From: Candidatus Bathyarchaeota archaeon
Lineage (GTDB): Archaea > Thermoproteota > Bathyarchaeia > Bathyarchaeales > DTEX01
Direction: 5' to 3'
DNA length: 64,000 nt
Assembly (NCBI GenBank): GCA_018396635.1
Contig: JAGTQE010000001.1
Span: 62,001-126,000, forward strand
The notes beneath the pieces were generated by a model that saw nothing but the letters and a program-made list of their open reading frames with translations, was not told the DNA's origin and ran no database searches. Shown in pieces: positions 34,728 to 47,777 of the stretch (positions within the stretch are counted from its first letter, which is position 1; every line of letters starts with the position of its first letter). The position numbers and the translations under genes are program-made.

Positions 34728-35075
34728 ATGGTTAGGGGTCTATTGAGGGCCGTAGTATATGGTGTGTCTGCGCTTCTACTGTTTTTAGGTGTGGTTTTTG
34801 TGATGTCATTTAATCTTGGATTAGCCTATCTTCTGGTTGGGGTTATACTTATGTCCGTAGCTATAATATTGCTTGCGCTAACTAGAGAGAGGAAGCCTAT
34901 AGAGATTAAGCAGACAATATCGGTTGGCGGACCAATAAAGGTTAGGGAGGTGCGCTGCCCGGTCTGTGGCGCAAATATAGATGTGACTAAGGTTAGGGTT
35001 GTCGCTGGAAGACCAATAGTTACATGCGGTTATTGTGGAAACAATTTTGAGCTGACAGAGGAGCCATTATGGTAG
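34728..35075 (+). CDS. Small membrane protein with zinc ribbon
   Basis: 115 residues. Two adjacent membrane helices (about 10-30 and 32-49) are followed by a cytoplasmic linker and a zinc ribbon with two CxxC pairs: RCPVCGANIDV and TCGYCGNNFEL (about 77-110). No enzyme signature. Its last seven bases overlap the start of the DUF2207-like gene (ATG inside TTATGGTAG), so the two are translationally coupled. As first gene of the radical SAM operon it may be a scaffold, metal donor or docking subunit; this is inferred from position only. Confidence 0.8.
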   Translation: MVRGLLRAVVYGVSALLLFLGVVFVMSFNLGLAYLLVGVILMSVAIILLALTRERKPIEIKQTISVGGPIKVREVRCPVCGANIDVTKVRVVAGRPIVTCGYCGNNFELTEEPLW

Positions 35076-36655
35076 CAGCTAGTAGGTGGACCATCTTCCT
35101 GCTCCCAATATTTGTTTTGGCTACGTGCATCTATCCGGCTTATGCCCAGGTCAAATATAGGGTTGATAGAGAGTGGGTTCAGATATCGATAAACAAGGAT
35201 GGTTCAATAGACATACTCTATAATATAACCATGACATATATTTCGGGAACTCCTAAGGGCATAATCACCCTTGGGATGCCGAAAAGGGGCTTTCAGATAC
35301 ATTATGTCCGTGATATTGATGGCAGAAACCTCACTCACACAATAGTTTCTTATGGAAACTTTTATGGCGTAGACATAGAGCTTAAAGCCCCAATCTTGTT
35401 AAACAAACCCTACATAGTGATTGTTTGCGCGTCAGTCCCAGAAATGATATATGAGGATGAGGCGAACCCGGGCAATGTTGGGCTGAAATTCTATCCATCA
35501 ACATTCAATGATGCCGAGGGGAAGATAGGTGACATTAGGGTTGCAATAGTCCTCCCAGAAGGGGTTAAAGAGGATGAGGTGAAATATGCTGAAAGAAGTT
35601 TCAGCAATATTTATAGGAATGAGGAGAATCTACTCGTAGTCTACTGGGAGGAGAACAATTGGCCGCCAGCCAAAGAGTTTTGGGTTGGAGTTTCCTTCCC
35701 CAAAAAGTATGTTAATATAGGCCCGGACATTTGGTTTTATATTCTGGTTGGCGGATCGATCGCAGCCTTCATAGCCATGATAGGTGTAGTTATAGTTTTA
35801 GCCTTTAGGGGGTTAAGGAAGGCTAGGTATGAGAAGCCTAGAATAGCTATTGAAGCCCTAGGTCCAGCTCGCGGTCTCACGGCTGTTGAGGCAGCAGTCC
35901 TCTTAGACCTAAAACCCATTAAGGTTTTAACGATGATTTTATTCAGCTTGCTCCTTAAGCGTGCAGTTGAAATAATTTCTACCGATCCAGTGATTAGGCT
36001 TAGGAGGCTGCATCACGATAATACAGATGGGCCCAACTTAAGATACTATGAGATTGACTTTCTATGGGCTATAAGGTCTGATGGAAGTCTGGATGAGAGG
36101 GCGCTTGCAAGATTATACCTCAACCTAAGAGACGCTGTGAACCTCAAGATTAGGGGTTTCTCCAGAATCGACACGATAAATTATTATAGGGATATTGTGA
36201 ATAGGGCTTGGCAGCAGGTTACGCAGGCTGGCACACCAGAGCTTAAATGTGACGCTCTTGAAGGAAACATAGAGTGGCTTTTAGCCGACGAAAGATTTGA
36301 GGAAAGGCTGCGAATAGCGTTCCCACCAGACATAATAATTTATCCTAGGCCTGGCTGGTGGTGGTATTGGGGTTGGCCGCGCGATCAACCTCCAATCCGG
36401 ACTGGTGAGGTTAAGCCGATTCCCATACCCGGCCAAGAGTTCGCAAATAATATAGCCTTAGCGATTCAGAAAGCTGCAAATAATATTGTTTTGAATGTTC
36501 AGGAGTTCGCAAACCGATTAGTTCCAGCGCAGAAGGCGCAGATTGCTCAGAGACCGCTGAGATATCCTAGCTGTGTATGTGCCTGTGCTAGTTGTGCCTG
36601 CGCATGTGCATGTGTGAGTTGTGCGTGCGCTTGCGCCCATGGAGGTGCCCGCTAA
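35069..36655 (+). CDS. DUF2207-like membrane protein with Cys-Ala repeat tail (candidate modified substrate)
   Basis: 528 residues. A signal-like N-terminus (FLLPIFVLATCIYPAYAQ) leads to an extracellular beta-rich domain (about 27-215) with TMTYISGTPKGIITLG. A membrane helix follows at about 222-246 (ILVGGSIAAFIAMIGVVIVL). The cytoplasmic region begins RGLTAVEAAVLLDLKPIKV, like DUF2207-type proteins. It ends with a Trp-rich patch WWWYWGW (430-436), three 11-residue repeats (457-489) and a tail (501-528) with 10 Cys, mostly alternating with Ala. The tail is on the same side as the radical SAM enzyme encoded next. I infer it is the substrate of that enzyme; metal binding without modification is the main alternative. 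Confidence 0.85.
   Translation: MVAASRWTIFLLPIFVLATCIYPAYAQVKYRVDREWVQISINKDGSIDILYNITMTYISGTPKGIITLGMPKRGFQIHYVRDIDGRNLTHTIVSYGNFYGVDIELKAPILLNKPYIVIVCASVPEMIYEDEANPGNVGLKFYPSTFNDAEGKIGDIRVAIVLPEGVKEDEVKYAERSFSNIYRNEENLLVVYWEENNWPPAKEFWVGVSFPKKYVNIGPDIWFYILVGGSIAAFIAMIGVVIVLAFRGLRKARYEKPRIAIEALGPARGLTAVEAAVLLDLKPIKVLTMILFSLLLKRAVEIISTDPVIRLRRLHHDNTDGPNLRYYEIDFLWAIRSDGSLDERALARLYLNLRDAVNLKIRGFSRIDTINYYRDIVNRAWQQVTQAGTPELKCDALEGNIEWLLADERFEERLRIAFPPDIIIYPRPGWWWYWGWPRDQPPIRTGEVKPIPIPGQEFANNIALAIQKAANNIVLNVQEFANRLVPAQKAQIAQRPLRYPSCVCACASCACACACVSCACACAHGGAR
36437..36535 (+). repeat. Three 11-residue repeats before the Cys tail
   Basis: Residues 457-467 (EFANNIALAIQ), 468-478 (KAANNIVLNVQ) and 479-489 (EFANRLVPAQK) align without gaps with a pattern x-x-A-N-(N/R)-hydrophobic. 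An 11-residue period suits a long amphipathic helix. It could be the leader-like region bound by the PqqD-like domain of the enzyme, or a spacer. Confidence 0.7.
36569..36652 (+). other. Cys-Ala repeat tail (28 codons)
   Basis: The last 28 codons of the DUF2207-like protein encode three units, each opening with Ser-Cys: SCVCACA, SCACACACV and SCACACAHGGAR. Ten Cys alternate with Ala or Val, giving C-x-C spacing throughout. All four Ala codons and both Cys codons are used in mixed order, so this is not a young DNA slippage tract and the repeated pattern is kept at protein level. Confidence 0.85.
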
Positions 36656-36657
36656 TC

Positions 36658-38016
36658 ATGGTTAAGATGGGTCTTAGGAGGATTTTTTCCGGGAGGATTA
36701 GACTTCCAATATATCATTTGAGGGTTTATGATAATGTCCATGGGGGTTTAAGGCTTCACTTAAGACTTGAGAGGGATGGAAGCGGTGTATTAATTGTTAA
36801 TGCCTCAAGGGTTCTATTCCTTAATAAGACCGCAGCTGAGTATGTTGCCTCATTTATTAAGGGAGATGGCGAGGATGAAGTCGTGAGGAAAATGGTTAAG
36901 CGCTACAGTATCGACGCTGAAACAGCGCGTAAAGATTATCGTGAAATCCTCTATATAATAAACACTTTCGTGAATACGCCGGATGTCTGCCCAGTCTCAT
37001 ATCTTGGCGTTGAGAAGATGGAGCCCTTCCAGAAGGAGCTGAGCGCACCATATCGTATGGACCTAGCGATAACATATAGATGCAACAATAGATGCGTCCA
37101 CTGTTATGCTGGCGGGCCTAGAGAGACAAGGGAGCTGACTAAAAAAGAGTGGTTTAAGGTTATGGATAAAATCTTTAGTCTCGGGATTCCACATGTTGTC
37201 TTCACTGGTGGTGAACCAACATTAAGGGATGACCTGCCAGAATTAATAGCGTATGCCGAGAAAGTTGGGCTTATATGTGGGCTGGTTACTAATGGACGTA
37301 GGCTTAAAGATAAAAGATACTTCCAATCCCTGGTTGACGCTGGCCTAGACCACATTCAAATAACCCTCGAATCACATAATCCAGAAATCCATGATAGAAT
37401 AACTGGTGTATCTGGGAGCTGGCATGAGACCCTCGAAGGCTTGAAGAACGCTCTCGAGTCACCAATATACACTATAACTAATACGACACTCAACAAATAT
37501 AATGTTGACAATATACTTGAGACTATAAAGTTTATACATGACTTGGGAATAAGGCAGTTCGCATGCAACAGCATAATATATTCTGGGAAAGCTGCTCAAC
37601 CTGATCTCGTCAAAGAATTCGCGATAGAGGAGTTCGAGCTCAAGCCAATTCTCGCTAGAATTAGGGATTATGCGTATGAGCTTGGGATGGAGTTCATATG
37701 GTATACGCCGACAGAATACTGCATATTAAATCCGCTTGAGCTCGATTTGGGAATAAAGACTTGCAGCGCATGCAGAATAAGCATGTGTATAGAACCCAAT
37801 GGAACGGTTATACCGTGCCAGAGCTATTTTGCTCCGCTTGGAAATATACTTAGGGATGATTGGATGAGCATCTGGCAACATCCATTATGCCAAGAGATTA
37901 GGGGCCGAAAGTATGCTCCCGAGAAATGCCGTGAGTGCCCAATGCTGAATATTTGTGGTGGAGGTTGCCCGCTGAAAATCAAGTATAAGACTTATGTTTG
38001 TAGTAGCGTTCCATAA
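36658..38016 (+). CDS. Radical SAM/SPASM maturase with N-terminal PqqD-like recognition domain
   Basis: 452 residues. The N-terminal part (about 30-110) has a PqqD/RRE-like pattern: GVLIVNASRVLFLNKTAAEY, then a helical stretch ending in YSIDAETARKDYREIL. The radical SAM core has the 4Fe-4S motif TYRCNNRCVHCYAG (about 143-156) and VFTGGEPTLRDDLPEL. A SPASM region with further Cys closes the protein: CSACRISMC, then TVIPCQSYF, CRECPMLNICGGGCP and a last Cys. This architecture is that of peptide-modifying enzymes such as PqqE and thioether-forming maturases. ATG 36658 follows GGAGGTG, two bases after the previous stop. The adjacent Cys tail is the obvious target. Confidence 0.92.
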   Translation: MVKMGLRRIFSGRIRLPIYHLRVYDNVHGGLRLHLRLERDGSGVLIVNASRVLFLNKTAAEYVASFIKGDGEDEVVRKMVKRYSIDAETARKDYREILYIINTFVNTPDVCPVSYLGVEKMEPFQKELSAPYRMDLAITYRCNNRCVHCYAGGPRETRELTKKEWFKVMDKIFSLGIPHVVFTGGEPTLRDDLPELIAYAEKVGLICGLVTNGRRLKDKRYFQSLVDAGLDHIQITLESHNPEIHDRITGVSGSWHETLEGLKNALESPIYTITNTTLNKYNVDNILETIKFIHDLGIRQFACNSIIYSGKAAQPDLVKEFAIEEFELKPILARIRDYAYELGMEFIWYTPTEYCILNPLELDLGIKTCSACRISMCIEPNGTVIPCQSYFAPLGNILRDDWMSIWQHPLCQEIRGRKYAPEKCRECPMLNICGGGCPLKIKYKTYVCSSVP

Positions 38017-38298: not shown

Positions 38299-39204
38299 TT
38301 GATTTTCTTTTGGAGGTCTAAAAAAGAAGAAAGTCGACAAAGGAAAGTTGATAGGGCTCAGAAAAGACTGGAAGATTTTAAATCGGCTCAGAATGAGAAG
38401 CAGGCCCCGGCATGGATATCTTCAATTGGAAAGATAGAGAACGAAGTTAATGAAAAGATAAAGACTTTTAATTCGAATATAAAGAATATAAAAGCCTTTT
38501 CTTTAAGACTTGAGGAGTTAGTTAAAATGCTTAATTCCGGCGAAATATCACAGAGCATATATGATCTCTTATTAGAGGAGCTGAGCAATGACCTCTCGCT
38601 TCTCATAGAGGAGACATTTCTTCTTAGGGAAAGCTTAGAGGTTCTAAAGGCTAGAGCTAAGATCGAGTGGGTAAAGGAAAGGATAGGGATGGGTTACTCA
38701 GAAAAGGAGAGCCCACAAACAGATTGGATAAGATACCAAGCGTCATACTCACCAATTTATAAATGGAAAGAGATAGTGGACAAAATAGATAATGCTTTAT
38801 CATCGTTGTCGCTTGAGGAAGAAATTTCATTAATTGAACGCTATCTTTCAACAATCAAGAGGTGGGGAATGCCCACATCGAAGCTAAAGAATTTTGAGGA
38901 GATTAAAAAGATTCTGCAGCAACGCTTAACCACCCTCATGGAAAAATGGTCTTCTATTAGGAAGGATAAGATTGGAAAAATAATGGACCTGGAGATGAAG
39001 GCCTCGCAGATTAAAGATGAAATTAAAGAGGTGGAGGTTAGATATGCTGTTGGAGAAATAGATAGGAGCTACTGCGACTTTATGTTAAGCAAATTGCATG
39101 GTTCTCTAAGAGCAACAGAAAAAGACCTCTATGAAACAAGAAGTTATGTCGATGATATCGACCTAAAGATATTCAGGGTAATGGAAATGCTGAGGGAATT
39201 ATGA
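38299..39204 (+). CDS. Cytoplasmic coiled-coil protein with two SHOCT-like motifs
   Basis: 301 residues, no membrane helix or signal peptide. It is highly charged and mostly helical. The basic N-terminus FFWRSKKEESRQRKVDRAQK leads into coiled coil. Two copies of a short motif occur: NSGEISQSIYDLLLEEL (about 78-95) and AVGEIDRSYCDFMLSKL (about 249-265). The TTG start has GGAGG upstream. Its stop overlaps the next gene by four bases (ATGA), so all three genes here are coupled. I infer an adaptor for the permease, because related motifs end both partner proteins. Confidence 0.8.
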   Translation: MIFFWRSKKEESRQRKVDRAQKRLEDFKSAQNEKQAPAWISSIGKIENEVNEKIKTFNSNIKNIKAFSLRLEELVKMLNSGEISQSIYDLLLEELSNDLSLLIEETFLLRESLEVLKARAKIEWVKERIGMGYSEKESPQTDWIRYQASYSPIYKWKEIVDKIDNALSSLSLEEEISLIERYLSTIKRWGMPTSKLKNFEEIKKILQQRLTTLMEKWSSIRKDKIGKIMDLEMKASQIKDEIKEVEVRYAVGEIDRSYCDFMLSKLHGSLRATEKDLYETRSYVDDIDLKIFRVMEMLREL

Positions 39205-40607
39205 TGGAGAAAAGTCTTTTTAATTTCTTATTCCTCTTTTCCTTGGCTTTGTTCACGTGCCTGGCTGTCCAGGTACTAGTTGTGGATGGGTGGGAGGATG
39301 AATATGGCAATGAAATTTCAGATGTCAACTTACTTGCGCCAGCATACAATGTGACATTGCTTGTAAGCAACTGGGATGAGAGCTCATATCTCGGAGGGTT
39401 AAATGTCTTCGTCTACGATTCAAATGAAAGCTTAATTTTCGCCGGGGTCACGGACGCCTTCGGGAGCCTATACTTAACGCTGAAAGAAGGATTCTATACT
39501 GTTGTTATTAAAAGCGATGAGAGGGTTGTTGGTTATCAAAGGATAAATGTCACGAAATCTAGTACCATAAAAATTAGGGCGTGGGCTTTCACCCTAAGAA
39601 TCACATGTATTGACAGAGAGTCTAGATTTGTTGATGGAGCCATAGTGCATCTTTATGACCGAATGATAATTTTTGACGCAAATGCCACAAATAAAGACTT
39701 CAAAGCTAACATAACTGAGCGAAAGGTATGCTCGGTAAAAACCGATAAAAATGGTACGGCGATCTTCAACAATATTTGGAATGGAACATATAGAATTGTC
39801 GTCGAACACGGCAGGATAATTGGAGAGAAGATAATAGATGTGAATAAGTCTGAGAACTTAACTCTAATATGCAACAGGGTTTCCTTAAAGATAAAAATTT
39901 ACACATCAACGGTATTAAGAAAACCATTATCGAATGCGACAATTCTTTTAGAAGATAGCTTTGGACGTATATTTGCAAAAGAAGTGACTGATGAAGAAGG
40001 AGTAGTCTACTTTAACAATGTTTACGGTGACAATTACACTGTTTTTGTCGATTGGATGGGTTTTGAAGTCTTCTCCGGAACCATAAATGCAAATGTTGAA
40101 AGAGACCTTGAGTTTGAAGTCTCTGTTTTTAGCGTAACAATTCGGGTGGTGGATGCTTTTGGTAACGCTCTCCCCAACTCAAGGGTCACTATAAAGAGAA
40201 TTGTTGGTAGGGTTGTAGTGAAGACATTAGAGCTAGAAGCAGATGAGAGGGGGATTGTCTCAGTTATGCTACCCTCAGGCTACTATGAATTTTCTTGCTC
40301 TAGCGGAATTTACAGTGGTTCAATTATCGTAAACATATTCAATAATTATAGTGGAACAATATCATGCGGTATTCATCCCAATATATTCACCTTGGCATTT
40401 GTTGTTTCAGTGCCACTGCTTCTCTTCTCTTTGCTCTTAGAGAGGCAGAAGATTAGGAAGCCACTAGAGTACAGGAGATATCAAAATATTCTTCTGAGAC
40501 TTGAGAATCTATATAATAGTGGATTAGTGGAGTATAAAATATACCGGAAGCTTAGGGAGGAATATGAGACTAAACTTATGGAGCTTGGCGGGAGGAGAAG
40601 AAGATGA
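39201..40607 (+). CDS. Cell-surface Ig-like repeat protein with C-terminal membrane anchor
   Basis: 468 residues. An N-terminal hydrophobic signal or anchor (LFNFLFLFSLALFTCLAVQV) is followed by about four beta-sandwich repeats of the carboxypeptidase-regulatory/CnaB kind, each with a DxxG turn: TDAFGSLYLTL, TDKNGTAIFNN, TDEEGVVYFNN and ADERGIVSVML. Many N-x-S/T sites suggest glycosylation. A membrane helix (about 396-415) and a basic cytoplasmic end with the motif YNSGLVEYKIYRKLREEY (about 438-455) follow. It overlaps both neighbours by four bases. Likely the extracellular partner of the permease. Confidence 0.83.
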   Translation: MMEKSLFNFLFLFSLALFTCLAVQVLVVDGWEDEYGNEISDVNLLAPAYNVTLLVSNWDESSYLGGLNVFVYDSNESLIFAGVTDAFGSLYLTLKEGFYTVVIKSDERVVGYQRINVTKSSTIKIRAWAFTLRITCIDRESRFVDGAIVHLYDRMIIFDANATNKDFKANITERKVCSVKTDKNGTAIFNNIWNGTYRIVVEHGRIIGEKIIDVNKSENLTLICNRVSLKIKIYTSTVLRKPLSNATILLEDSFGRIFAKEVTDEEGVVYFNNVYGDNYTVFVDWMGFEVFSGTINANVERDLEFEVSVFSVTIRVVDAFGNALPNSRVTIKRIVGRVVVKTLELEADERGIVSVMLPSGYYEFSCSSGIYSGSIIVNIFNNYSGTISCGIHPNIFTLAFVVSVPLLLFSLLLERQKIRKPLEYRRYQNILLRLENLYNSGLVEYKIYRKLREEYETKLMELGGRRRR

Positions 40608-43600
40608 AAGATAGGATTTTACTGAAACATATTGTTATGAGCACATTAATACTCCTTTCACTTACGTCACTCTATAGTAAAGTTGGAAGCCCTGACGGAA
40701 ACTATCTTGTGTGGGTGACACTTTATTTAAGAGAGTATGGAACCGATATTCCAATCGAAAATATTTCCCTATCAATTACAATTGCAACGTCCTCCGGCAC
40801 ACTAAAACAAGGTCCATGGAAATCTGACGAGACTGGTAAAATCGACGTCTTCCTTGGAGAATTTTCTATAAGAGCGCTTTCTACATTACCTAGGGTCGTT
40901 GAACTGTCGTTGACAGGCGATTATCTTCTGATAAAGGTTGGTGAAGTCTTTATTGAAGATATTGATGACCTGGATGCGCAATATGATCTAAAAGGAGTTA
41001 GGTATAAGAATATTCAGATTAACTTTCCAAGCATTCTAAAGCCGGGGAGAGAAGTCGAAATTTTAGACGATAAGGTTTTTGTTAAAATGGGCATTTGGGT
41101 TTTAAAGGGTAAGATAGTATCTATTTCTGATAGAGATCCCTTATCAGGGAAAGATTCAGCAATTTTAGTTAAGCCGTCCGCTAAAGTTGTCTCTGCTATA
41201 GTAGAGAATAAAACAGAGATTTACAAGCATCATTACTTAGTTCCAATCAATTATAATATATTGATAGTGCCAAAAACACCAGTTGGGCAAGCTTTTCGGT
41301 ATAAGGATCTTAGGGTTAAAATAGATGAAAACACGTCATTTATACACTGGATGTATTATGCGGCCTCCTACTATGTGGATACGATAATGCCCTCGCTCAG
41401 AAAAGAGATAAACTGGCTGAAGGCATCTGGTTTACCTATCGATCAGGAGCTTGAGGAGTATAATGCCCTCAACAACCTAGCTATAAGAACGTTATCTTCC
41501 CTCTTAAAAGAGGAATATACTGCAGCCCTTAACGGAATGAGAATTTTCAACAACAGGGTTAACGATTTAATTAAGTGGTTGGCGAACTTAAAGAACCTAT
41601 CAATTGTTAGCACAATTCTCATAGTAATGTTCGCATACTGCTTTTCGTCGCTGCTCTCAGCATTCATATTTGAAGAACCCACGAAGGGAAAGATAAGACT
41701 GATAGTTAAAATACCTCTCTTTATTCTATTGACAATGTTATTTACGCTAACAAACCCTTCAGCAAAGCTGGCATGCATTATACTTATTGGTAGCTCAGTC
41801 GGCGCCCCGGTATCGCCTAATGATATTCAGTCCGCTATACTTGGAACACTTATCTTTGACGCATTGATATATTTCTTAATAGTTGCAGTTACAGTGAAGA
41901 AGTCTCCTATAACGGATCTTGCGCTGCAGATGGGTATAAGAGGATTAAAAAGGAGGGTCTCTAGGTCTATCTTAACATTAACCACAATAGTGATAGTTGT
42001 GGCTTCCTCAGTGCTCTTCATAAACATGTCTGTTGTGAGAGGGACAAAGATTAGAGGCTCATGGCTTGGAACACAAACTCCAAGCATAATAATAAGATCT
42101 GAATCCTACTCACCAAGCATAAATGTCGTTGATGTGAACTGGATTCAGACTAATGAGTGGTGCATGAACGCAAGTTATTTTGAAACAATTAAAAGCTTTG
42201 AGATGGCAGGGCAGGATACTCAAATTTTACGGGCTGGAATGATTAAGTATAATGCTGGATCTTGGCAACCAGTAACTTTGGTCCTAATAGACCCAACATT
42301 TATGGATAAGTATTATAACTTCTCAATCTATGTGAGAGGCTTTTGGAAAGATTTCTCTCTAGGAGAAAATGTTGTTCTTCTGCCAACCACCTATAGCGTG
42401 GCAATCGGAGATTATGTCTTGTTGGGCGTAGACGAAAGCATAATCACACCGCAAGGGGGAATCTCACTTGGAACTAGAAGCCTAGGCGTATTCCGCGTAG
42501 TTGGGAAGTTTGATTTATCTCAAATTTTAGAGCTTAAGAATCTGGATAACACGCCGCTCTTCAAAGAGTCTGCCATAAATATTGCTCTTGCCCCAATTAG
42601 ATCAATAAAGGACCCCGCTATATATATTTCTGAGGTTGTAGCAATAGTTAAACCAGGGTATAATCCAATCGATGTGGCTTCAGAAGTATCTTATTCACTT
42701 GGCCTTCCAGTTATAGCTAACAGTAACGGAATATCTGTCTTGGTTGCGTGGTCTATTGAGGTCTCTATTACGGGATTAATTCAGAGCATTGTGCCGCTGA
42801 TAATAGCTGGGCTAATGATGTATGTATCTATGAATTCAATTTTTGAGGAGAGGAAGAGGGAGCTGCTTACTTTGGCAACATTAGGTATGGATCCACACAA
42901 CGCTTTAATCTCCTTTACTGTTGAGACCCTACTTTATGGTCTGCTAGGAACATTTATAGGTTTCTTTGGAGTATATGCGGTGGTTTCTTCCCTTTCATTT
43001 CTGGAGAGAATTACTGGCCTCTCCATTATGCCACCACAATTAGGTTACTCCGCCTTTACAGTTTTTGTGGCCCTCTTCACTGGCGTACTTATGGTCTTCT
43101 TAGGGGGATATGTGCCATCTATAAAAGCCCAGGGATTGAGCCTTATGGGTAGGGCTAAGGAACGCGAGATATTTGGTGAGCTTATGGAGGAGGGGAATCT
43201 TATGATATTTCCTTTGCCAATAAGGGAAAGCATTCAGAACAGTGAGCTAGTATATGCTTATGTTAAGGAGAGTGTCGCAAAAATGCCCTCCTCCCTAATT
43301 GATCATAAGTCTATAAAGGGCGAGATTAGGAGAGATGGCACCTTTAATATATCCCTTATAGCTTTTGGCCCGGGGCGCACAGTCACAATACCATGTGAGA
43401 TTAGGGGTGAGAGAAGGAGAGATGTTTTGGCGCTGTCGGTTGCCTTTCCAAAAGAATATAGGAGCTACGGCGAAATTGGAAGGGTGCTTCGAAATCTTGA
43501 GTTAAGCATGATAGGTTTCTCGGTGTGGCGTGACATGCAGGTTAAAGCGAAGATCGTGAGGGAGGCCCCTAAGAGGGAGAAGACTGTTGAAGAGATAATA

Positions 43601-43984
43601 GAGGAGGCAAAAGTCGTAATCGAGCAGATAAAGGAGATAAATAGGAAGATTAAGATGCTTGATTCTCAAAAGGATAGGCTTATGGAAGAAACGTATAATG
43701 AGTTTAGACAGAAATATATGCGCTCTCTGGACGAGAAGTATAAGATTTTAAGGTCTATAACGATAGGTTTAGAGCAATACTTAGCCCAATTCAGAGAAGA
43801 AATCAGGAAGATTAACCTAGAGATTGAGAGAAGTACGATAGCCTACAATCTTGGAGAAATTAACGAGGAAGAATATATAAAAATCTGTGGCCCCCTCCAG
43901 AATAGAGTTGCGAGTCTAAAGAGCAAGGTAATGGATCTTGAGGAGATATTTGAGTTCCTTAAGAAGCCATCTGGAGTAATATGA
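40604..43984 (+). CDS. FtsX/MacB-type permease with large ectodomain and cytoplasmic coiled coil
   Basis: 1126 residues. An N-terminal membrane helix (about 8-25) precedes an ectodomain to about 335. A group of helices (about 336-440) follows, then the FtsX core: LTTIVIVVASSVLFINM, a second ectodomain (about 475-710), PLIIAGLMMYVSMNSIFEER, YGLLGTFIGFFGVYAVV and FTVFVALFTGVLMVFLGGY. The C-terminal 280 residues are cytoplasmic, ending in coiled coil with the motif YNLGEINEEEYIKICGPL (about 1080-1097). Such permeases normally pair with an ABC ATPase; none is encoded here. Probably a mechanotransmission or lipoprotein/peptide export complex with the two upstream proteins. Confidence 0.85.
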   Translation: MKDRILLKHIVMSTLILLSLTSLYSKVGSPDGNYLVWVTLYLREYGTDIPIENISLSITIATSSGTLKQGPWKSDETGKIDVFLGEFSIRALSTLPRVVELSLTGDYLLIKVGEVFIEDIDDLDAQYDLKGVRYKNIQINFPSILKPGREVEILDDKVFVKMGIWVLKGKIVSISDRDPLSGKDSAILVKPSAKVVSAIVENKTEIYKHHYLVPINYNILIVPKTPVGQAFRYKDLRVKIDENTSFIHWMYYAASYYVDTIMPSLRKEINWLKASGLPIDQELEEYNALNNLAIRTLSSLLKEEYTAALNGMRIFNNRVNDLIKWLANLKNLSIVSTILIVMFAYCFSSLLSAFIFEEPTKGKIRLIVKIPLFILLTMLFTLTNPSAKLACIILIGSSVGAPVSPNDIQSAILGTLIFDALIYFLIVAVTVKKSPITDLALQMGIRGLKRRVSRSILTLTTIVIVVASSVLFINMSVVRGTKIRGSWLGTQTPSIIIRSESYSPSINVVDVNWIQTNEWCMNASYFETIKSFEMAGQDTQILRAGMIKYNAGSWQPVTLVLIDPTFMDKYYNFSIYVRGFWKDFSLGENVVLLPTTYSVAIGDYVLLGVDESIITPQGGISLGTRSLGVFRVVGKFDLSQILELKNLDNTPLFKESAINIALAPIRSIKDPAIYISEVVAIVKPGYNPIDVASEVSYSLGLPVIANSNGISVLVAWSIEVSITGLIQSIVPLIIAGLMMYVSMNSIFEERKRELLTLATLGMDPHNALISFTVETLLYGLLGTFIGFFGVYAVVSSLSFLERITGLSIMPPQLGYSAFTVFVALFTGVLMVFLGGYVPSIKAQGLSLMGRAKEREIFGELMEEGNLMIFPLPIRESIQNSELVYAYVKESVAKMPSSLIDHKSIKGEIRRDGTFNISLIAFGPGRTVTIPCEIRGERRRDVLALSVAFPKEYRSYGEIGRVLRNLELSMIGFSVWRDMQVKAKIVREAPKREKTVEEIIEEAKVVIEQIKEINRKIKMLDSQKDRLMEETYNEFRQKYMRSLDEKYKILRSITIGLEQYLAQFREEIRKINLEIERSTIAYNLGEINEEEYIKICGPLQNRVASLKSKVMDLEEIFEFLKKPSGVI

Positions 43985-46664: not shown

Positions 46665-47777
46665 CTAGTATAGCAGGTGAACGTTTCCCAGCTTCACATT
46701 TCTAAGATATCTTTTAGCTATGTTGTAGCATTCGTAAGCTTGTTTCCTGCTGGTTGTTGGCAGGTCGTTCATGACATATTGTGGGTAGAAGGCAAGTAAA
46801 GTGTATGGGATATTAGGATCGATGTCTGATATGAATCTAGCTATCTCCTCAACCTCGGATGAATCTATATATCCTGGAATTAAAAGGGTGCTGGCCGTTA
46901 ATACTGGAACCTCGCTCCTTTCTCTAAAGTATTTTTCGCCTATAATCCTAAAGTTTTCAAAGGATGGCTTATTCGATGTTCCACATAAAGCTCTATAAAT
47001 GTTTTCGTTCCATGCCTTAAGATCGAATTTCACAATGCCACCGCTCTTAAGTGATAGTTCGGCTGCTTTAAGAGCAAAAACCCTACTCATGTTCCCGTTT
47101 GTCTCCCAACATATCCTCAGTATGCGCCTCCCATCACCACATTCTTCCAGCGCTATTTCACTAGTCTTCAGAGCATGCGGCATCTGAACTGAAGGGTCGC
47201 CGCCAAAGAAGCATATACATGAAACCTTCTCATTAACCTTCCCCGCTAGCTCCTCACAGCTTAAATAGGGGCTTAATTTCTGTGATAAGCTCCTGTAATG
47301 CCAGTTTTGGCAGAAGAGACAATCTAGGCTGCATGCCCCATAAAACACCGCTAGGTTCATGTAGCCGCCTTCAGCGGTCGGCTTGTAGGCGTATTTAGGA
47401 AAGCCCGCCCCAGTGCATCCTGGACAAAACCACCAAGCCACGCAGTTTGTCGGCAGCGGATCATAATACCATTCTAAGATGCCTTTATCCTGTGTTCCGC
47501 CTAGGCGTATGAGGCTACCGCCAGCATTATATGTTAGCCCGCAGAAGCCTTTCCCACCCGGAGGAATTGCACACTCGTTTGCACACATACCACACTTTAA
47601 TCCACTTGAGCTCTTCGGCACATCCGGAGGTAGCTCAAATGCCTCTCGTGAAAGTCTGCGCACCCTGCTAACTACTTCAAGCGCCTCATCAGGCTTCCCT
47701 TTAATACATGCAGAGCATACGCCCAAGTTGCTGGAAATCAGAGGTGAACTTGCACCGCAAATAGTGCACTTTCCCAA
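46665..47777 (-). CDS. Radical SAM enzyme of the PflA/AmmeMemoRadiSam type
   Basis: 370 residues. An N-terminal zinc-ribbon-like part (CTICGASSP, CSAC) and a second Cys group CGMCANECAIPPGGKGFCG precede the radical SAM motif YGACSLDCLFCQNW (CxxxCxxC, about 147-160), then CFFGGDPSVQMPHALK and KFDLKAWNENIYRALCG. This layout matches the radical SAM component of the AmmeMemoRadiSam system or distant PFL-activase relatives. The Memo and AMMECR1 partners are not in the window. Its target is unknown. Confidence 0.83.
   Translation of the reverse strand: MGKCTICGASSPLISSNLGVCSACIKGKPDEALEVVSRVRRLSREAFELPPDVPKSSSGLKCGMCANECAIPPGGKGFCGLTYNAGGSLIRLGGTQDKGILEWYYDPLPTNCVAWWFCPGCTGAGFPKYAYKPTAEGGYMNLAVFYGACSLDCLFCQNWHYRSLSQKLSPYLSCEELAGKVNEKVSCICFFGGDPSVQMPHALKTSEIALEECGDGRRILRICWETNGNMSRVFALKAAELSLKSGGIVKFDLKAWNENIYRALCGTSNKPSFENFRIIGEKYFRERSEVPVLTASTLLIPGYIDSSEVEEIARFISDIDPNIPYTLLAFYPQYVMNDLPTTSRKQAYECYNIAKRYLRNVKLGNVHLLY

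Follow-up and report, generated by a model that had tools for sequence, protein, structure and literature searches.

A conserved cysteine-alanine tail on an archaeal membrane protein and its candidate radical SAM/SPASM maturase

Analysis of a 64,000-nucleotide stretch from a Candidatus Bathyarchaeota archaeon (contig JAGTQE010000001.1, positions 62,001 to 126,000; hereafter the window), drawn from a 1.45-Mb archaeal assembly of 35 contigs, reveals a membrane protein that ends in a dense alternation of cysteine and alanine, encoded next to a radical S-adenosylmethionine (SAM) enzyme. We propose, with a probability of roughly 0.6, that this enzyme is a dedicated maturase that crosslinks the Cys-Ala tail in place, the tail being retained thereafter as a permanent module of the membrane protein. 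The pairing of the two genes, the single clade formed by the enzymes and their match to SkfB, SuiB and CteB make modification of the tail in place, inside the cell, the most likely activity. It is highly probable that the tail is the enzyme's substrate; thioether formation is the likeliest chemistry on it but is putative, at about even odds, and a metal or redox role of the tail is possible at somewhat less than that. The coupling of tail and enzyme, the membrane topology, the enzyme architecture and the extreme conservation of the tail are all supported by computation.

Open reading frame (ORF) analysis places three genes at window positions 34728-38016, all on the plus strand, as are all features of this unit given below. 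The first (34728..35075; a 115-residue ORF ending in EEPLW) encodes an accessory membrane/zinc-ribbon protein. The second (35069..36655; 528 residues), characterized by AlphaFold2 (AF2) modeling and alignments, encodes the tail-bearing, DUF2207-like membrane protein, and its start overlaps the end of the first gene by 7 bp. The third (36658..38016; 452 residues), characterized by Pfam, AF2 and Foldseek, encodes the enzyme, and its ATG lies 2 bp past the stop codon of the second. The coupling of three genes proposed in a sequence-only reading of the window is thus borne out by the ORFs, their common strand, the overlap and the short gap. The tail core, CVCACASCACACACVSCACACA (residues 502-523; 36572..36637), is followed by the last residues of the membrane protein, so that its terminus reads CVCACASCACACACVSCACACA-HGGAR (longer end segment, PSCVCACASCACACACVSCACACAHGGAR). 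Ten cysteines fall within residues 502-522 in the pattern CxCxCxxCxCxCxCxxCxCxC. Cysteine accounts for 1.5% of residues in the long ORFs of the window, and the second-densest 22-residue stretch there contains 5 cysteines versus 10 in the tail. With 10 cysteines in 22 residues and a binomial probability of 2.5e-13 per stretch, the alternating tail that had been noticed in the sequence holds up.

Across 62 homologues the majority fraction over the tail is 0.93, with nine of the cysteines conserved at 98-100% and the first at 85%. The alanines at positions 505, 510, 514, 519, 521 and 523 do not vary in any of the 62 sequences and are hence as invariant as the cysteines; Ser517 is maintained via both TCN and AGY codons. 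Between pairs 60-92% identical, where synonymous differences approach saturation, the ratio of nonsynonymous to synonymous differences per site (pN/pS) is as low as 0.024 over the tail core. Other parts of the protein give higher values, namely 0.14 (0.142) for the helices that precede the tail, 0.19 for the inner domain, 0.32 for the outer domain and 0.42 for the linker. These values indicate that the tail is under extreme selection. Since simple metal binding by such a run makes no demand for fixed alanines and serine, the spacer residues probably matter chemically or structurally. This bears on the alternative of a metallothionein-like or Fe-S segment that stays unmodified and that the enzyme uses or senses (e.g. 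as an electron or sulfur donor) while acting elsewhere. CxC-rich runs are indeed typical metal ligands, the companion gene encodes a zinc ribbon, and two genomes described below have the enzyme without the tail; but the invariant spacers are not required for metal binding, the enzyme has a peptide-binding fold and no other conserved partner was seen, making such an arrangement rather unlikely. The AF2 model leaves the tail disordered, with a predicted local distance difference test score (pLDDT) below 40, as would be expected of an unmodified substrate. Between Thermoproteota and Methanobacteriota the tail is nearly unchanged while the surrounding protein drifts to about 30% identity, and this constancy suggests a role basic to the cell, as opposed to that of a weapon or signal.

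The tail-bearing protein, modeled by AF2 with a pLDDT of 83.6, consists of a hydrophobic signal segment, an outer β-domain, one transmembrane helix, an inner α-domain, a pair of conserved helices, a variable linker and the tail. The outer β-sandwich domain (residues 28-213; 35150..35707), delineated by AF2 strands, yields in Foldseek loose matches to OST1/ribophorin I and the β-domains of M1 aminopeptidases, with template-modeling scores near 0.27. The single transmembrane helix (residues 221-249; 35729..35815) is indicated by hydropathy and coincides with an AF2 helix spanning 221-249. Directly after it lies a basic stretch, RGLRKARYEKPR, and by the positive-inside rule the tail is therefore predicted to be on the cytoplasmic side, the location expected of the enzyme. 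The helices preceding the tail (residues 453-486; 36425..36526; AF2 helices 455-473 and 477-484) show a conservation of 0.64, versus 0.40 in the linker after them, and could serve as a leader bound by the enzyme. DUF2207 membership, which had been suggested for this protein, does not hold for the window protein itself (E 0.1; 13.3 bits against a gathering cut-off of 24.4), but the resemblance is clearer among its relatives, with matches at E 0.01 or better in 6 of 62 and a best value of 1.6e-5. The earlier suggestion that the tail stays on the membrane protein is supported, in that the tail is predicted to be cytoplasmic on a retained protein and the gene unit encodes nothing that would free it or carry it out of the cell. 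Were the membrane protein instead a carrier, with the modified tail cleaved off to act as a free peptide or small cofactor in the manner of pyrroloquinoline quinone (PQQ) or mycofactocin, the hyperconserved core would be typical of a cofactor precursor, as in the SCIFF comparison (PMC8326336), and the helices and variable linker would resemble a leader and spacer. However, the three-gene unit contains no peptidase or exporter gene, and the scaffold, including the outer domain, is conserved alongside the tail in both phyla; we regard release as very unlikely.

The AF2 model of the enzyme (pLDDT 89.5) opens with strands and then three helices (residues about 17-107; 36706..36978) that correspond to a PqqD-like domain, that is, the recognition element (RRE) of maturases of ribosomally synthesized and post-translationally modified peptides (RiPPs). 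Pfam PqqD matches this region at a sub-threshold E of 3e-4 in the window enzyme and is seen in 27 of 64 family members, with a best value of 1.7e-7. Next comes the radical SAM core (37069..37536; PF04055, 5e-31), in which the CxxxCxxC cysteines of the motif CNNRCVHC (C142, C146 and C149) are retained in 64 of 64 enzymes. The SPASM region (37720..38001; PF13186, 1e-10) comprises C355, C369-x12-G-x4-C387, C424-x2-C427-x5-C433-x3-C437 and C448, so that the pattern CX9-15GX4C - CX2CX5CX3C - C is complete in the window enzyme. The three-part architecture read from the sequence alone is thereby confirmed for the radical SAM and SPASM parts, with the PqqD-like part resting on an RRE-like predicted fold and the sub-threshold profile match. 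Foldseek recovers SkfB (2.6e-18), SuiB (7.5e-17) and CteB (3.8e-14) over 419-471 alignment columns at 17-21% identity. All three carry an RRE, SkfB and CteB making Cys thioethers and SuiB a carbon-carbon link (PMC6231123, PMC8326336), and RRE-bearing maturases bind leaders via this element (PMC6231123). By sequence and predicted fold, the enzyme displays the features of RRE-radical SAM/SPASM maturases. No NCBIfam model came near its cut-off for the window enzyme in a profile scan: identity with PqqE was rejected (134.1 bits against a curated cut-off of 381.35), as were assignments to NirJ2, GeoRSP and AhbC/D, whose scores fell far short of the cut-offs.

The same fold search informs the question of whether the enzyme might modify the tail without crosslinking it, either by epimerizing residues to give alternating L-Cys/D-Ala or by oxidizing cysteines. 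The alanines are as invariant as the cysteines, which would make their α-carbons possible targets, and radical SAM epimerases are known, being described as leader-independent and possessing a critical cysteine (PMC8326336). The epimerase EpeE and the sulfatase-maturing enzyme anSME do appear among the lower matches of the fold search, but the best full-length ones are the bond-forming RRE maturases, with EpeE ranking only 48th; the combination of RRE and SPASM also favors leader-guided bond formation, though weakly. Modification of this kind is thus unlikely, and crosslinking of the tail is the reading we prefer.

In a global scan, a degenerate DNA pattern for the tail that requires Ala codons was matched against 84,980 prokaryote species, represented by one genome apiece, and yielded 87 tail-bearing stretches. 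All of the 80 examined are archaeal and on the same scaffold, and they come from Bathyarchaeota, other Thermoproteota, Theionarchaea, Methanofastidiosia and their relatives; the system accordingly spans two archaeal phyla, Thermoproteota and Methanobacteriota, beyond the source lineage. These 80 loci were picked by the tail pattern, and the conservation of their tails is partly by construction, so that the fair test is a set found by the scaffold and blind to the tail. Here the tail is present in 56 of 57 non-redundant C-termini, one of the 56 being shorter by a CA dipeptide. The remaining C-terminus (L123; genome G216, with the tail on the minus strand) has a TGA at the third Cys codon, CVCA-TGA-ASCACACACVSCACACA; for this in-frame TGA, assembly error, pseudogene and recoding are indistinguishable. 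A profile lacking the tail found no full-length scaffold without a tail in 398 genomes of the phylum. Matches to a 9-Cys pattern in G473, G518, G526, G565 and G332 in the phylum scan were rejected as CTG/TGT repeats.

The enzyme follows this distribution closely. Within the class, 257 genomes were compared; the tail protein occurs in 77 of them and the enzyme in 74, and the five differences in presence are attributable to contig-end fragments, weak matches or incomplete genomes. At 97 non-redundant loci 800 bp or more of 3' sequence is available, and at 91 of these the enzyme lies directly downstream of the tail gene. In L228 and L204/L293 the order is swapped, with the enzyme about 3.3 kb upstream, and in L179 it is divergent and about 2.7 kb off on the same contig. 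In G027 (L216/L030) both tail protein and enzyme are broken by stops and frameshifts, the tail itself remaining intact, which amounts to joint decay. Phylogenetic analysis groups the tail-linked enzymes in one clade (support 99), with tail-less enzymes nested inside it; the tree is therefore most simply read as showing that the latter have lost their tail protein. Of two further enzyme copies, that of G519 runs to the contig end, and a second, shorter copy in G217 has no tail. Taken together, these observations support a scheme in which a single scaffold, a single tail and a single enzyme are obligate partners. That tail and enzyme are mere neighbors with no functional connection could be argued from L191, in which the genes are not adjacent, and from the swapped order in L204 and L228, but adjacency at 91 of 97 loci across two phyla, co-presence over the 257 genomes and the joint decay in G027 render this extremely improbable.

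Certain observations weigh against a dedicated tail maturase. The enzyme of L191 is about 30 kb from the tail gene, and no enzyme orthologue was found for L207 in its incomplete genome assembly. L191 and L179 were rejected as cases of a tail without an enzyme, since the enzyme was located on the same contig in each; a clear case of a retained tail with no enzyme is hence not seen at any locus, L207 being the qualified one. Conversely, G466 and G575, two genomes of one genus (loci L328 and L329), encode the enzyme at full length, yet neither scaffold nor tail is detectable in them. A Cys-rich substitute substrate was sought near these two enzymes and not found, and no enzyme was seen linked to another substrate. 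Both refuting conditions named in the sequence-only reading, a tail kept without the enzyme and an enzyme tied to a different substrate, thus come out on the side of the proposal, with these small exceptions. The pairwise distances of tail protein and enzyme correlate with r 0.97, a value that could come from shared descent alone. Within the enzyme itself, the PqqD match of the window protein is below the Pfam cut-off, and the last SPASM cysteine, C448, is missing from 21 of 64 enzymes.

In light of the above, we envisage the following course of events. The tail protein would be inserted so that the β-domain faces outward and the tail reaches into the cytoplasm, and the enzyme would dock via its N-terminal RRE, probably onto the conserved helices preceding the tail. 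The SPASM clusters and a 5'-deoxyadenosyl radical would then install crosslinks from tail cysteines to carbons of nearby residues, most likely as Cys thioethers, and the modified tail would stay permanently attached as a module of the membrane protein. The C-x alternation, interrupted by two two-residue spacers (AS and VS in the window protein), could fold as a meander of three short strands, its cysteines pointing to one side and its alanines, for the most part, to the other; this meander is reached by reasoning rather than by any prediction tool. The resulting thiol/thioether surface would be rigid and might house a metal or redox centre connected to the outer domain. We would also entertain, as a distinctly speculative extension, that the system is an ancient archaeal protein-bound peptide cofactor of two phyla, in which a radical-enzyme-crosslinked Cys-Ala β-meander at the inner end of the membrane protein holds a metal or redox centre linked to the outside domain. 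If true, this would be a post-translational prosthetic group built from a protein's own C-terminus and not a released RiPP.

The protein encoded by the first gene of the unit has an N-terminal hydrophobic stretch in residues 1-55, as indicated by hydropathy, and a C-terminal zinc ribbon (CPVCG...CGYCG) whose library matches are weak and below the cut-offs. Its gene is present within 3 kb at 59 of 78 homologous loci, and the neighborhood comparison found it absent from Methanobacteriota and vent Thermoproteota loci. For this reason the zinc-ribbon protein was rejected as a core component and its gene is accessory: of the three-gene operon perceived in the sequence-only reading, all genes are present in the window, but the zinc-ribbon gene is not a constant member. 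The next gene group downstream (window 38299-43984) codes for a coiled-coil protein, a membrane protein with carboxypeptidase-regulatory-like domains and an 1126-residue FtsX-like permease. A second radical SAM gene in the window (46665-47777, minus strand; 370 residues; PF04055, 3e-15) is unrelated in position to the tail/enzyme pair. L328 and L329 likewise have a second, more distant radical SAM gene near the enzyme. Genes resembling aldehyde ferredoxin oxidoreductases, recognized by eye, occur near the pair in several distant archaea (L291:799-2724, L296:11038-12852 and L328:6868-8766), which may be chance.

Run on viral contigs, the tail pattern matched two phage genes that end in ...CACVDCACACACVDCACACDC...; in both cases the next gene encodes a radical SAM enzyme of family phrog_1802. 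This phage family (L340:6168-8160 and L341:5102-7091, both on the minus strand, and L342-L421), whose enzymes carry a SPASM-like CX2CX5CX3C, has relatives in Achromobacter phages JWF and 2-1. At most of 32 related phage loci a gene for a CxCxC-rich protein either adjoins that of the enzyme or shares its strand at a distance of up to about 3 kb, and the long CxCxC segments show C-N, C-A or C-D alternation. In both scaffold and enzyme the phage and archaeal pairs are unrelated at the family level; therefore, the pairing of an alternating-Cys segment with a SPASM enzyme appears to have arisen more than once. We treat the phage CxCxC/phrog_1802 family as a separate candidate system, one which suggests that alternating-Cys tails may be a general type of SPASM-enzyme substrate.

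The pair is unnamed in the family libraries searched and undescribed in the literature searched, which was limited to open-licence papers; within the same literature no radical SAM peptide-maturation system is described for these archaea. By its sequence, the candidate substrate belongs to none of the sactipeptides, SCIFF, TIGR04222, ACGX or DUF2207 families, the last being approached only through weak profile matches in 6 of 62 tail proteins and a sub-threshold one in the window protein. Enzyme and tail form a well-delimited, testable candidate enzyme-substrate pair from mostly uncultured archaea.

The nearest published idea concerns the TIGR04222 membrane proteins of bacteria, whose Cys-rich tails face outward and which have been proposed as substrates of multinuclear non-heme iron-dependent oxidases (MNIOs; PMC12452194). 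Both systems involve a membrane protein with a C-terminal Cys-rich low-complexity segment beside a gene for a peptide-modifying enzyme. However, the TIGR04222 proteins are bacterial, mostly actinobacterial, with variable Ser/Gly-rich tails predicted outside and an iron oxygenase as partner, whereas the archaeal tail is invariant, predicted to be cytoplasmic and partnered with a radical SAM/SPASM enzyme. The TIGR04222 model has no match in the window protein and matches one of 62 tail proteins (E 4.6e-4), and no MNIO enzyme, whose gene adjoins those TIGR04222 genes that are treated as encoding substrates, was found among the six window proteins scanned. The systems of SkfB, SuiB and CteB share the RRE - radical SAM - SPASM/Twitch order, a full-length structural match and a gene beside a Cys-containing substrate candidate, but their substrates are small bacterial precursor peptides, in contrast to a 528-residue archaeal membrane protein with a 22-residue Cys-Ala core; sactipeptides, with their small free precursor peptide, differ in the same way. 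The SCIFF/ranthipeptide system (CteA/CteB) likewise joins a highly conserved Cys-rich sequence to a dedicated thioether-forming RRE-SPASM maturase (PMC8326336), but SCIFF is a free peptide of Clostridia with six cysteines in 45 residues, and its NCBIfam family has no match among the 62 tail proteins. The ACGX system, named for a Cys-containing repeat, also has a radical SAM/SPASM protein, and its model TIGR04340 is matched by 26 of 64 enzymes at E <1e-20; the window tail, however, has no ACGx repeat and no glycine inside its Cys core, being CA with two spacers on a membrane scaffold. In the bacterial amine dehydrogenase modified by QhpD the links are Cys-Asp/Glu, and this substrate is not known to have a Cys-Ala repeat or a membrane anchor. 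QhpD nevertheless offers a precedent, as its radical SAM thioethers are formed within a working enzyme subunit (of quinohemoprotein amine dehydrogenase, QHNDH) and not in a released peptide (PMC8326336). The occurrence of the nearly invariant tail beside a gene for such an enzyme in many anaerobic archaea suggests that these organisms assemble a peptide-based chemical module of an undescribed kind directly on a membrane protein; if the chemistry holds, radical SAM maturation would extend from free peptides to a permanent membrane-protein module.

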